Positions 15,318 through 56,255 of a stretch of 64,000 nt of DNA are shown piece after piece. The position numbers were made by a program, and so were the translations under genes. The stretch is taken from the NCBI RefSeq assembly GCF_009925085.1, contig NZ_JAABNR010000001.1, forward strand, positions 124,001-188,000. Reading direction: 5' to 3'. The notes under the pieces are model-generated. The model made no database searches. It was not told the DNA's origin and was given only the letters and a program-made list of their open reading frames with translations. The DNA is from Stagnihabitans tardus. Its GTDB lineage: Bacteria > Pseudomonadota > Alphaproteobacteria > Rhodobacterales > Rhodobacteraceae. How positions within the stretch are numbered: position 1 is the first letter of the stretch; every line of letters begins with the position of its first letter.

Positions 15318-15710
15318 CCCAAAGGCGCGGCTCTGCCGCAAGCTTTTCTGTCGCCTGCGGGCTTGCGCCCTCCGGCTCCGGGCGCGGCCTGGGCCGCGCC
15401 ATGCCTCCGGCGGGGATATTTGGGCCAGTGTGAAAGGGAAAGGGGGGCGCCGAAGGTCGAGGGGTGAGGTCAAGGCGGTTTCGGCAGGTGCCTGGTCTTG
15501 GCCATCGGATGTGGTCGTCGGCATGGGAGCCTGGGCTCAGGCCGCGATCTTGCGCGGCTTGGGCCTGAGTGAATGAAAAGGGGCGCTGACCCTGCGGCGC
15601 GACCCTCTTCGTCTGTTTCAACATATCCGCTGCGAACCAGCCTGAAGTTTCCGCGCCCTGGCGCGGAAGCTGAGGCAAAGGCTTGCGCGCCTTGGCGCGC
15701 TCCGCTGGGT
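15318..15710 (+). repeat. Intergenic 3'-end repeat module after rsmA
   Basis: 393 bp without a gene. Just after rsmA is a module of short stem-loops (about 15330-15380, CTGTCGCCTGCGGGCTTGCG and CCCTCCGGCTC). It is related to copies at 48918-48975, 52961-53015 and 53132-53186. It is followed by the box CGGGGATATTTGGGCCAGTG with TGAAAG at 15411-15436. Nothing recognisable lies in 15440-15710. Confidence 0.65.
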
Positions 15711-48907: not shown

Positions 48908-49678
48908 GGTTTCCAGGCGGAGCGGCCTTGCGGCCGCATTCCTGTCCCTCGCCTGCGGGCTGACGCCCTCCGGCTCGACCGGGCGCCAGGGGCGCCAGGG
49001 GTGCCTCCGGCGGGACTATTTGGGCCAAGTTGAAAGGGAAGAAGGGGACTGGCGGGCGCGGCGCCTGCGGTGCGGCTGGATGCCTCCGGCGGTGATATTT
49101 GGGCCAATGTGAAAGGCAAGCGGGCGGCAGGCGGGCCGCTGGTGATATGCGCGCCAGAGTCACGCCTTCAGCGCGCCCGCCAGGGTCCAAGAGTCCCAGG
49201 CGGCAAGAGGTCACCTCACCAAACCCCGGGACACCTGCAACCCGGCACCCTGCCCCCCTCACGCTTTCGCAAAACCCCGGGAGAGGTCCGGAGAGGGCAG
49301 CGCCCTCTCCGGCCACCGCCGCCGCGCGGGCCGAGGGCTTGCCCGAGGCCACCCTCGCAAGCAGCTCTGAACTCCGCCGGCTTCCAGCAAACCCCTCCAG
49401 CCCGCCCCCAAGTGACCTTCCCGGCGCCCCCCCCGGACCTCTGTCCTCCCTCCCCTTTCAACTTGGCCCAAATACTCCGGGAGAGGTCCGGAGAGGGCAG
49501 CGCCCTCTCCGGCACCCGCCGCCGCGCGGGCCGAGGGCTTGCCCGAGGCCCCTCCGCCGCCAAGCGCCCCATCGGCAGGCCTTCGCCAGTGCAAAGCAGA
49601 ACCCTTGGAGAGGCAGGGGGCTCCTGCTATCCTCTTCTCCAAGGGCCTGAAGAAGCCCAGCAACCGATGAGGCGAAAC
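48908..49678. repeat. 771-bp repeat-rich intergenic region
   Basis: No gene seen. In order: a GCGGCC-type hairpin module after hemB (48918-48975), a plus-oriented box at 49011-49036 and a second at 49090-49115 (ATATTTGGGCCAATGTGAAAG). Then come two copies of a CCGGAGAGGG/CCCTCTCCGG stem (49288-49312 and 49488-49512), each followed by a GCCGCGCGGGCCGAGGGC module (49313-49350 and 49513-49550). A minus-oriented box lies at 49455-49485. The two later halves form a direct duplication of about 70 bp. The YSC84-type promoter must lie in the last 100 bp. Confidence 0.75.
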
Positions 49679-52951: not shown

Positions 52952-53191
52952 CCTGGTAGCGCGCCTGCGGCGCATTGTTTTTCTCTCGCCTCTGGCGCGA
53001 CGCGCCAACCGGCTCAAGCCTGCCTCCGGCGGGGATATTTGGGCCAGTGTGAAAGAGGAAACGGGGGCGCGGCAGGTTTGCGGCGCCCCCATTTCATTTG
53101 GTCAGAAACTTCTCCAGCAGAGCCAATCTCCGAGCCGGTTGGCGCGCAGCGCCAGAGGCGAGATGACAAGCATGCGCCGCAGGCGCTCCGC
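52952..53191. repeat. 55-bp inverted module pair plus 3'-end box
   Basis: Two 55-bp copies, 52961-53015 on plus and 53132-53186 on minus, are near-identical inverted repeats (GCGCCTGCGGCGCAT ... CGCGCCAACCGGCTC). One follows DUF502, the other follows bdhA, each in the orientation of its gene. A plus-oriented ATATTTGGGCCAGTGTGAAAG box is at 53030-53056. There is no gene in the gap. Confidence 0.8.
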
Positions 53192-53968
53192 TTACAGGGC
53201 CGTCCAGCCGCCATCCACGCTGATCGTCGTGCCGGTGACCTGGTCGGCGGAGGGCGAGCACAGATAGACCGTCGTCCCGCCGATCTGCTCCACCGTCGCG
53301 AATTGGCGCGAGGGTTGGCGCAGGAGCATGACCTCGCGGATCACCCTCTCGCGGTCCATGCCATGGACCTTCATCTGGTCGGGGATCTGCGCCTCGACGA
53401 GGGGCGTCAGAACATAGCCCGGGCAGATCGCATTGGCGGTGATGCCCATCCCCGCCACTTCCAGCGCCGTGGTCTTGGTGAAGCCCACGACCCCATGCTT
53501 GGCCGCGATATAGGCCGATTTGAAGGGCGAGGCGGTCAGGCCATGGGCCGAGGCGATGTTCACCACCCTGCCCCAGCCTTTTGCCTTCATCCCCGGCAGG
53601 GCCGCCGCCGTGGTGTGAAAGGCCGAGGACAGGTTGATCGCGATGATCCGGTCCCACATCGCCGGGGGGAAGTCCTCTATCGGCGCCACATGCTGGATGC
53701 CCGCATTGTTCACCAGGATGTCGCAGCCCCCCGCCGCTGCCACCAGCGCCCGGCAAGCGGCCCCATCGCTCATGTCGGCGGCGATGTAGCGCACCTCGAC
53801 CCCGTGGCGGGCGGAGAGGTCGGCGGCGAGGGCGTGATCCTCGGGCCGGTCGGTGAAGGAGTTCAGGACGACCGAGGCCCCCGCCGCCGCCAGCGCCTCT
53901 GCCACGCCCAGCCCGATCCCCGAGTTCGACCCGGTCACCACGGCCCGCTTGCCTGAAAGTTCCGCCAT
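53192..53968 (-). CDS. bdhA: 3-Hydroxybutyrate dehydrogenase
   Basis: 258-aa short-chain dehydrogenase converting D-3-hydroxybutyrate to acetoacetate with NAD, a step in polyhydroxybutyrate turnover. It has the Rossmann motif VVTGSNSGIGLGVAEAL, the NNAGIQHVAPIEDFP segment typical of HB dehydrogenases, the catalytic SAYIAAKHG (Tyr and Lys), and AICPGYVLTPLVEAQI. The start is MAELSGKRAV with AAGGAGAGCATC upstream. It stands alone, convergent with DUF502, with the sRNA candidate 258 bp upstream. Confidence 0.93.
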   Translation of the reverse strand: MAELSGKRAVVTGSNSGIGLGVAEALAAAGASVVLNSFTDRPEDHALAADLSARHGVEVRYIAADMSDGAACRALVAAAGGCDILVNNAGIQHVAPIEDFPPAMWDRIIAINLSSAFHTTAAALPGMKAKGWGRVVNIASAHGLTASPFKSAYIAAKHGVVGFTKTTALEVAGMGITANAICPGYVLTPLVEAQIPDQMKVHGMDRERVIREVMLLRQPSRQFATVEQIGGTTVYLCSPSADQVTGTTISVDGGWTAL

Positions 53969-54226: not shown

Positions 54227-54254
54227 AAAAAAAACGCCAGCGCGAGGCTGGCGT
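54227..54254 (-). terminator. Rho-independent terminator of the sRNA candidate
   Basis: On the minus strand, a perfect 8-bp stem ACGCCAGC/GCTGGCGT with a 5-nt loop directly followed by eight T residues. It is the strongest classical intrinsic terminator in the window. Confidence 0.85.
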
Positions 54255-54302
54255 CAAGTCGTTGAGGCAGGTTTCATACAGGCAAGAAACCTATCGAGCA
54301 GT
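54227..54302 (-). ncRNA. Candidate trans-acting small RNA, about 76 nt
   Basis: Independent minus-strand transcription unit without an ORF. A promoter TTGAAG-N17-TATATA lies at 54309-54337 and would start transcription near 54302. The RNA would contain a 5' stem-loop AGGUUUC/GAAACCU (54269-54292, loop UUGCCUGUAU) and an unpaired CCUGCCUCAACGACUUG-like stretch. The intrinsic terminator is ACGCCAGC/GCUGGCGU followed by eight U (54227-54254). The 3' U tail fits Hfq binding. I do not recognise the family. The unit lies between bdhA (same strand, downstream) and a solute-binding-protein gene (opposite strand). Confidence 0.7.
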
Positions 54303-54308
54303 GAGTTC

Positions 54309-54337
54309 TATATAGCCCTCCCGGATTAACACTTCAA
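54309..54337 (-). promoter_or_regulatory. Strong sigma70-type promoter of the sRNA candidate
   Basis: On the minus strand, TTGAAG (54332-54337), an exact 17-nt spacer, then TATATA (54309-54314). The -35 matches the E. coli consensus at five of six positions and the -10 box at five of six, unusual in this GC-rich genome. Confidence 0.65.
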
Positions 54338-54410
54338 GCTAAAGGTTTGAAAAGGGCCGCGCAGGGGCTTAGTCTTCAACCATGTTCGGAAGTTGAAAGG
54401 ATTGTTGACG

Positions 54411-56255
54411 ATGCGCCCCCAGATGCGCCCAATCATGCGGCCCGCGATTGCCCGCCTGGCCCGGGTCTCGGCCCTTTGCCTGATCTCGGGGCTCCTTGCC
54501 CTGCCTGCCCAGGCCGAGCCCAGCCATGGCATAGCTATGTATGGCGCCCCCGCGCTTCCACCGGATTTTGTGGCCCTGCCCCAGGCCAACCCCCAGGCGC
54601 CCAAGGGTGGCAAGCTGACCCTGGGCGAGGCGGGCAGTTTCGATTCGCTCAACCCTTTCATCACCAAGGGCCAGGCGCCGGGCGCGGTCTCGCCCCTGAC
54701 GGTCGAGACGCTGATGGGCCGGTCCTATGACGAGCCCTTCTCGCTTTACGGGCTTCTGGCCGAATCGATAGACACCGACGAAGAGCGCAGTTTCGTCGAA
54801 TTCACCCTGCGCGAGGGGGCCCGATTCTCGGATGGCTCGCCCGTCACGGTCGAGGACGTGCTCTGGTCGATGGAGACCCTGGGCACGCCCGACAAGGGGG
54901 CCGCGCGCTATCTGACGGCCTGGAAGAAGGTGGCCAAGGCCGAGGCCACCGGCCCGCGTTCGGTGCGCTTCACCTTTGCCGCCCCCGACCGCGAGTTGCC
55001 GCTGCTTCTGGGCCTGCGTCCGATCCTGAAGAAGGCGCAGTTCGAAACCCGCGACTTCGCCGCCTCTTCGCTGGAGCCGGTCATCGGCTCGGGCCCCTAT
55101 GTCGTGGACCAGGTCGAAGCGGGCGCCAAGATCAGCTTCAAGCGCAATCCCGACTGGTGGGGCAAGGATCTGGCCTTCAACCAGGGCCTGTGGAATTTCG
55201 ATGCGATCGAATATCTCTACTTCGCCGATCCGACCGTCATCCAGCTGGCCCTGAGCGCGGGCGACATCGACCTTTACCGCGAGAGCAATGCCACCAAGTG
55301 GGAGACGGATTACGACTTCCCCGCCGTGGCCTCGGGCGAGGTGGTCAAGGAAGAGATCGCCCACCAGCGGCCCTCGGGGATGAACGGCTTCGTCTTCAAC
55401 ACCCGCAAGGCCAAGTTCGCCGATTGGCGGGTGCGCGAGGCGCTGATCCAGAGCTTCAACTTCGAGTTCATGAACCTCTCGCTGAACGCGGGCAAGCTGC
55501 CGCGCATCACGAGCTATTTCTCCAACTCCGAACTGGCGGGGGATGTGGCCAACCCCGCCTCGGCGCCCGTTGCGGCGCTCTTGGAGCCCTGGAAGGCCGA
55601 CCTCTTGCCTGGCGCGCTCGAGGGCTATGCCCTGCCGGTCAGCGACGGGACCGAGGCCAACCGGGCCGCGATCCGCAAGGCCGCTGGCCTTCTGGAGGAG
55701 GCAGGCTGGACGGTGCAGGACGGTGTCCTGAAGAATGCCGCCGGTGAGGCCATGGAGATCGAGATGCTCCTGGCCGTCGGCGCCGAGGATGCCATCGCCT
55801 CGGCCAATTTCTGGGCCCAGTCGCTGGAGAAGCTGGGGATCAAGTTGACGATCACCACCAAGGACAGCGCCTCTTACAAGGAGCAGGTCACGAAATACGA
55901 CTATGACATGATCTGGAATGCCTGGTCCTTGAGCCTCTCGCCCGGCAACGAGCAGCTACTGTACTGGGGCTCGGATGGGGTGACGGCGGAGGGGACGCGC
56001 AATTACATGGGCGTGGGCTCGGCGGCCGTGGATGGGCTGGTGGCGACCATGGTGGGGTCAAAAGACCGCGAGGACTTCGTGACGGCGGTGCAGGCTCTTG
56101 ACCGCGTGCTGACCTCGGGGCGATATGTGATCCCGTTCTGGTATTCCGATGTCAGCCGCGTGGCCCACAAGGCCAGCCTGCATCACCCCGAACGCCTGCC
56201 GCTTTATGGCGACTGGCTGGGGTTCCTGCCGGATGTCTGGTGGTATCAAGAATAA
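54411..56255 (+). CDS. Family 5 extracellular solute-binding protein (YejA-like)
   Basis: 614-aa periplasmic binding protein of an ABC peptide importer. The N-terminal Sec signal ends near ALPAQAEPSH. The binding domain begins HGIAMYGAPALPPDFVALPQANPQAPKGGKLTLGEAGSFDSLNPF-like, typical of YejA, and continues with EFTLREGARFSDGSPVTVEDVLWSM and VIGSGPYVVDQVEAGAKISFKRNPDWWGKD. The oligopeptide specificity of YejA (microcin C uptake) suggests peptides. No permease or ATPase genes follow, so it is orphaned here. The start could be 54393 (TTG) or 54423 instead. Confidence 0.88.
   Translation: MRPQMRPIMRPAIARLARVSALCLISGLLALPAQAEPSHGIAMYGAPALPPDFVALPQANPQAPKGGKLTLGEAGSFDSLNPFITKGQAPGAVSPLTVETLMGRSYDEPFSLYGLLAESIDTDEERSFVEFTLREGARFSDGSPVTVEDVLWSMETLGTPDKGAARYLTAWKKVAKAEATGPRSVRFTFAAPDRELPLLLGLRPILKKAQFETRDFAASSLEPVIGSGPYVVDQVEAGAKISFKRNPDWWGKDLAFNQGLWNFDAIEYLYFADPTVIQLALSAGDIDLYRESNATKWETDYDFPAVASGEVVKEEIAHQRPSGMNGFVFNTRKAKFADWRVREALIQSFNFEFMNLSLNAGKLPRITSYFSNSELAGDVANPASAPVAALLEPWKADLLPGALEGYALPVSDGTEANRAAIRKAAGLLEEAGWTVQDGVLKNAAGEAMEIEMLLAVGAEDAIASANFWAQSLEKLGIKLTITTKDSASYKEQVTKYDYDMIWNAWSLSLSPGNEQLLYWGSDGVTAEGTRNYMGVGSAAVDGLVATMVGSKDREDFVTAVQALDRVLTSGRYVIPFWYSDVSRVAHKASLHHPERLPLYGDWLGFLPDVWWYQE

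Follow-up and report, generated by a model that had tools for sequence, protein, structure and literature searches.

Does the intergenic stretch between a 3-hydroxybutyrate dehydrogenase gene (53192–53968, minus strand; TIGR01963, 365 bits against a cut-off of 307) and a divergent ABC solute-binding protein gene of the peptide/nickel class (54411–56255, plus strand; NCBIfam matches below cut-offs) hold a free-standing small RNA (sRNA) gene, and if so, for which RNA? In the window, that is, the whole 64,000-nt stretch of Stagnihabitans tardus DNA that was analysed, direct reading of the minus strand confirmed the elements listed in an earlier note, namely a −35 element TTGAAG (54332–54337) spaced by 17 nt from a −10 element TATATA (54309–54314), a hairpin at the 5′ end, and a terminator whose tail has eight T. 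Downstream of TATATA, positions 54302 to 54227 read ACTGCTCGATAGGTTTCTTGCCTGTATGAAACCTGCCTCAACGACTTGACGCCAGCCTCGCGCTGGCG followed by the eight T. The predicted transcript (54228–54302, minus strand), whose size and 5′ end are deduced from the sequence, would start at A54302 and end in the T run after 75 nt, between the flanking genes. Its 5′ hairpin (54268–54293) folds with eight pairs and a 10-nt loop, UUGCCUGUAU, at 54285–54276, and its intrinsic terminator (54227–54255) consists of a nine-pair stem (54255–54233) with a 5-nt loop and a T8 tail (54234–54227) that is compatible with Hfq binding. Folding of 54303–54228 yielded −24.2 kcal/mol (z −3.59), and none of 200 shuffled sequences folded equally well. 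Two plus-strand open reading frames in a mechanically generated list overlap the sRNA and were taken for chance ORFs. The window also contains a dispersed plus-strand element, GCCTCCGGCGGGGATATTTGGGCCA, with four copies at no more than three mismatches (15403–15427, 49003–49027, 49082–49106, and 53022–53046) and none in 100 shuffles.

Promoter and terminator alone would be insufficient proof of a gene, since a generic sigma-70 scan returned no promoter between 50000 and 60000, and terminator-like sites numbered five against 5.9 expected, that of the sRNA having the most pairs among the five. The case for more than a chance arrangement comes from conservation. A blastn search with the 110-nt element matched 36 of 61 genomes, that is, 36 of the 37 from the same family (the window's genome included) and none of the 24 from other families. 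The sole same-family genome without a match, G003, belongs to the window's genus and yielded no copy in a later search either; its assembly comprises 200 contigs and is 95% complete, so that either loss or an assembly gap may account for the missing copy. Across 30 aligned loci, nucleotides (nt) 1–39 were invariant, with the invariance starting at A54302 and the RNA closed by the T run, and the terminator varied with compensatory changes (columns 54/65 being GC in 16, CG in 9, and AU in 5 loci). The alignment is neutral on the 5′ hairpin because its pairs never vary.

A covariance model extended this distribution to all 390 genomes drawn from the order, which span 140 genera, are all labelled as members of the window's family and are all at least 90% complete. 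Among 240 genomes of the class it produced nine matches, three of them in the family (104–108 bits) and six in outsiders (28–33 bits); by eye, the latter have only the terminator in common with the sRNA and were rejected, as were weak second matches inside the family (29–34 bits), judged from their scores alone to be of the same terminator-only kind. The remaining 231 class genomes had no match; 211 of these are unlisted, and kinship is given for the rest only. We next inspected 98 loci taken from 97 genomes; sequence counts refer to 97 distinct sequences. The loci were 30 from blastn, 5 and 6 from further searches, the 30 best of the order draw, 2 from the class draw, and 25 extra ones, which were mainly the lowest scorers of the order draw, together with the genomes bearing second matches and, again, the R. 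sphaeroides-like genome. The 39-nt core (54264–54302, minus strand) was identical in 94 of the 98 loci and carried one difference in three; in the remaining locus, L170, the hairpin loop begins with one T fewer (TTTCTG in place of TTTCTTG), which is the only change of core length in the set. Directly upstream of the −35 element lies a further conserved box, TCAAACCTTT (54341–54350, minus strand), which 74 of 97 distinct sequences share in the form CAAACnTTT and which is possibly an UP element or a regulator site. Judged by its conservation, which reaches well beyond the species, we regard the element as a real sRNA gene; alignment and conservation likewise support its having its own promoter and terminator and a predicted 5′ end at 54302.

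In Rfam 15, which the earlier note had also named for checking the element, none of the families scored at or above its gathering cut-off anywhere in the window. Weak matches to SorY (RF02651; 15.3 bits where 111 is the cut-off) and to Hrs12 were judged to be chance. SorY itself sits at a different place in G065, a genome that we take for R. sphaeroides, its PufX being identical to R. sphaeroides PufX, and scores 115 there.

The earlier note had called the RNA undescribed. Instead, it probably corresponds to a known riboregulator: we put at roughly 0.9 the probability that the window RNA is the orthologue of StsR (RSs0827) of R. sphaeroides, an identity argued from properties, StsR being compared by its published description. 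As described in the literature drawn on here, StsR is a 72-nt, RpoHI/RpoHII-dependent RNA whose binding partners are Hfq, UpsM, the dcw 5′ UTR, and rpoE mRNA, the last contacted just inside its reading frame (PMC8307010); it is called an "orphan sRNA" (PMC8625941), its pairing with UpsM leads to RNase E cleavage (PMC8625941, PMC11354728), and RSs0827 is upregulated under iron limitation and in late or prolonged singlet-oxygen stress (PMC3413700, PMC3688512). RpoHI/RpoHII promoters are characterized by TTG at −35 and TAT at −12 (PMC10673084). By pattern, the locus displays this signature: of the 97 distinct sequences, 93 have TTG and 95 have TAT, and the longer forms CTTG and TATA occur in 82 and 88, respectively. 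The size of the predicted RNA, a stretch of which reads ACTGCTCGATAGGTTTCTTGCC... on the minus strand, and its intergenic location also agree with the orphan StsR. Another report lists Paracoccus sRNAs that show conservation within the family, and these possibly include the window RNA (PMC5107571).

A further property that agrees with StsR is complementarity to the UpsM/dcw leader. MraZ was present in 37 of 42 genomes searched, and 30 mraZ loci were compared, including five from Cereibacter-type genomes and five from the window's genus; because these leaders are related, the counts that follow are not independent. In 23 of the 30 loci, the 700 nt upstream of mraZ contained an exact complement of at least 11 nt to the core, versus 2 of 600 shuffles and none of the 30 downstream controls of 700 nt. 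In gapped local alignments, scores of at least 20 were obtained for 28 of the 30 leaders, with G029 as a borderline case, against 6 of 600 shuffles, and 27 scored at least 28, with no shuffle above 21. The site was not found in G023 and G032 among the 30, the G032 contig being cut. A free-energy duplex scan of the same 30 leaders was discarded, as it separated them poorly from downstream and shuffled controls, some of which did equally well or better; long bulged duplexes score high in such a scan, so we relied on the exact-complement and local-alignment counts.

In G065, the sRNA maps to C4:1443996-1444071 with the same core as the window RNA, and the leader upstream of mraZ contains GCAGGCTTCATACAGGCA, complementary at 17 of 18 nt to nt 19–36. 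Taken alone, this R. sphaeroides leader is weak evidence, its ungapped score being 39 where the best of 100 shuffles reached 36; its predicted binding gain is 15.9 kcal/mol. By eye, the mraZ leader of the window's genome holds a terminator besides the complementary site, GAGGCAGGTTTCATCAGGC (G000:C12:149498-149516), which would form 14 bp with nt 26–39 and 5 bp with nt 20–24 around a bulged U25 (54264–54283 of the window, minus strand). Here the predicted gain, the one of the two that was set against shuffled cores, was 22.7 kcal/mol, which none of 100 such cores reached (best, 19.8). The duplex of the window's genome is therefore shifted with respect to that of most relatives, in which nt 19–36 are engaged. 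Its dcw leader retains the common site minus one base, with further complementarity at the leader's other end, and three congeners (G005, G013, and G015) share GAGGCAGGTTCATCAGGC, the common site minus two bases. The common register is kept in another congener, G012, so that four of the five genus leaders read pair in the shifted register. Since these leaders are shifted against an unchanged core, it is the leader register that varies and the sRNA that stays fixed. The putative pairing, apparent in the window's genome and across the leaders compared, makes the hairpin loop plus the 3′ arm the likely seed, rather than the single-stranded middle suggested as a possible seed in the earlier note.

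A second leader site would engage the 5′ end of the sRNA, CUGCUCG (nt 2–8; 54295–54301, minus strand). Its complement, CGAGCAG, follows the first site by 20–80 nt in 22 of the 28 leaders with a first site, the window's genome included, and in 19 of 30 it gives the best match, located at +35 to +44. Within 130 nt, 22 of the 30 leaders carry some complement of at least 7 nt to nt 1–13, versus 72 of 1500 shuffles; the surrounding block is conserved as a whole, so something else may explain the second site. The two sites follow each other in an order that fits a single antiparallel complex. For reference, the dcw leader measures 268 nt and its 5′ region, R1, is hardly conserved, according to a 2016 report on UpsM (PMC5089854).

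By extension from published R. sphaeroides work, an RpoH-type sigma factor would transcribe the sRNA in stress or stationary phase, Hfq would bind it, and the RNA would pair with UpsM and the dcw mRNA leader, opening their structure to RNase E, after which dcw expression would fall and division would slow. To this scheme our comparison would add that the 10-nt loop may nucleate pairing before the 3′ arm invades, and that the 5′ end may clamp the second site ~35–45 nt downstream.

That the window RNA is instead a different sRNA also targeting UpsM, with StsR encoded elsewhere in R. sphaeroides, seems unlikely to us. In its favor, StsR is known here by description, and the number RSs0827 might indicate a different map position: as a guess, if RSs numbers follow gene order, counting from UpsM (RSs0682) would put RSs0827 near 0.85 Mb rather than at 1.44 Mb. 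However, size, promoter type, orphan location, and UpsM complementarity all agree with StsR, and a scan of 790–890 kb and 2590–2650 kb of the G065 chromosome recovered the sRNA itself and no other element of the same make, although these 160 kb are a small part of its 3.19 Mb. A text search of the literature drawn on here for the literal sRNA sequence found no occurrence, and one for RSs numbers 12xx–14xx brought up no relevant paper. Pairing at the rpoE start was not evident in the window's genome, where the longest exact complement is 6 nt; no rpoE gene turned up in the stretches of G065 examined.

Other readings tie the element to its surroundings. The earlier note had pointed to the adjoining solute-binding-protein gene as one of a class often regulated by sRNAs, and a divergent homologue indeed adjoins the sRNA in 97 of the 98 loci, but the window holds no complement of at least 10 nt to the core besides the sRNA gene itself; we consider it improbable that regulating this neighbor is, or is also, the conserved job, a role that would be compatible with StsR identity. 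It is more improbable still that the element serves as a 5′ leader or attenuator of the dehydrogenase gene and not as a trans-acting sRNA. Of the 98 loci, 84 carry a same-strand dehydrogenase homologue downstream, and the T run ends ~260 nt before the gene in the window, but the homologue is absent from 14 loci within the stretch examined (~1.5 kb or less), 13 of which keep the exact core, and the sRNA is complementary in trans to the dcw leader. We give scarcely any credence to a peptide encoded by the mini-ORF ATGAAACCTGCC... (MKPAS...): its start and first codons do fall within the invariant core and a stop follows within eight codons in 74 of 98 loci, but the other 24 lack that stop, no ribosome-binding site is visible by eye, and the start codon sits next to the hairpin stem.

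Even with the window RNA read as StsR, UpsM pairing appears to explain the unusually rigid 39-nt core only in part. Exact leader complements leave out nt 9–18, except for nt 18 in a few leaders, and the bulged free-energy duplexes pair some of these positions. Tentatively, the core may act as a hub with several fixed partners, either conserved mRNAs or a protein, in which case the targets would adapt and not the sRNA. Its near-absolute invariance and the shifted duplex offer precise mutations for separating the parts that serve UpsM from those that serve other partners, and the sRNA sequence provides a standard by which annotation can find the RNA.

Collectively, what is added here is the order-wide conservation, the lack of an Rfam 15 family at its cut-off, the shifted register within the genus, and the second downstream site. 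The StsR reading would extend an RNA switch that links stress to cell division, and that has been studied in a single species, to nearly all sampled genomes of a large environmental order. Among known systems, SorY is likewise a Rhodobacter stress sRNA of similar size (PMC8307010), and UpsM (RSs0682) is the target partner and not the window RNA. From StsR of R. sphaeroides the window RNA differs in its genus and in the shifted leader duplex, and the published rpoE pairing was not evident in the window's genome; it resembles StsR in its length of ~72–75 nt, its orphan location, its RpoH-type promoter pattern, and its complementarity to the UpsM/dcw leader.
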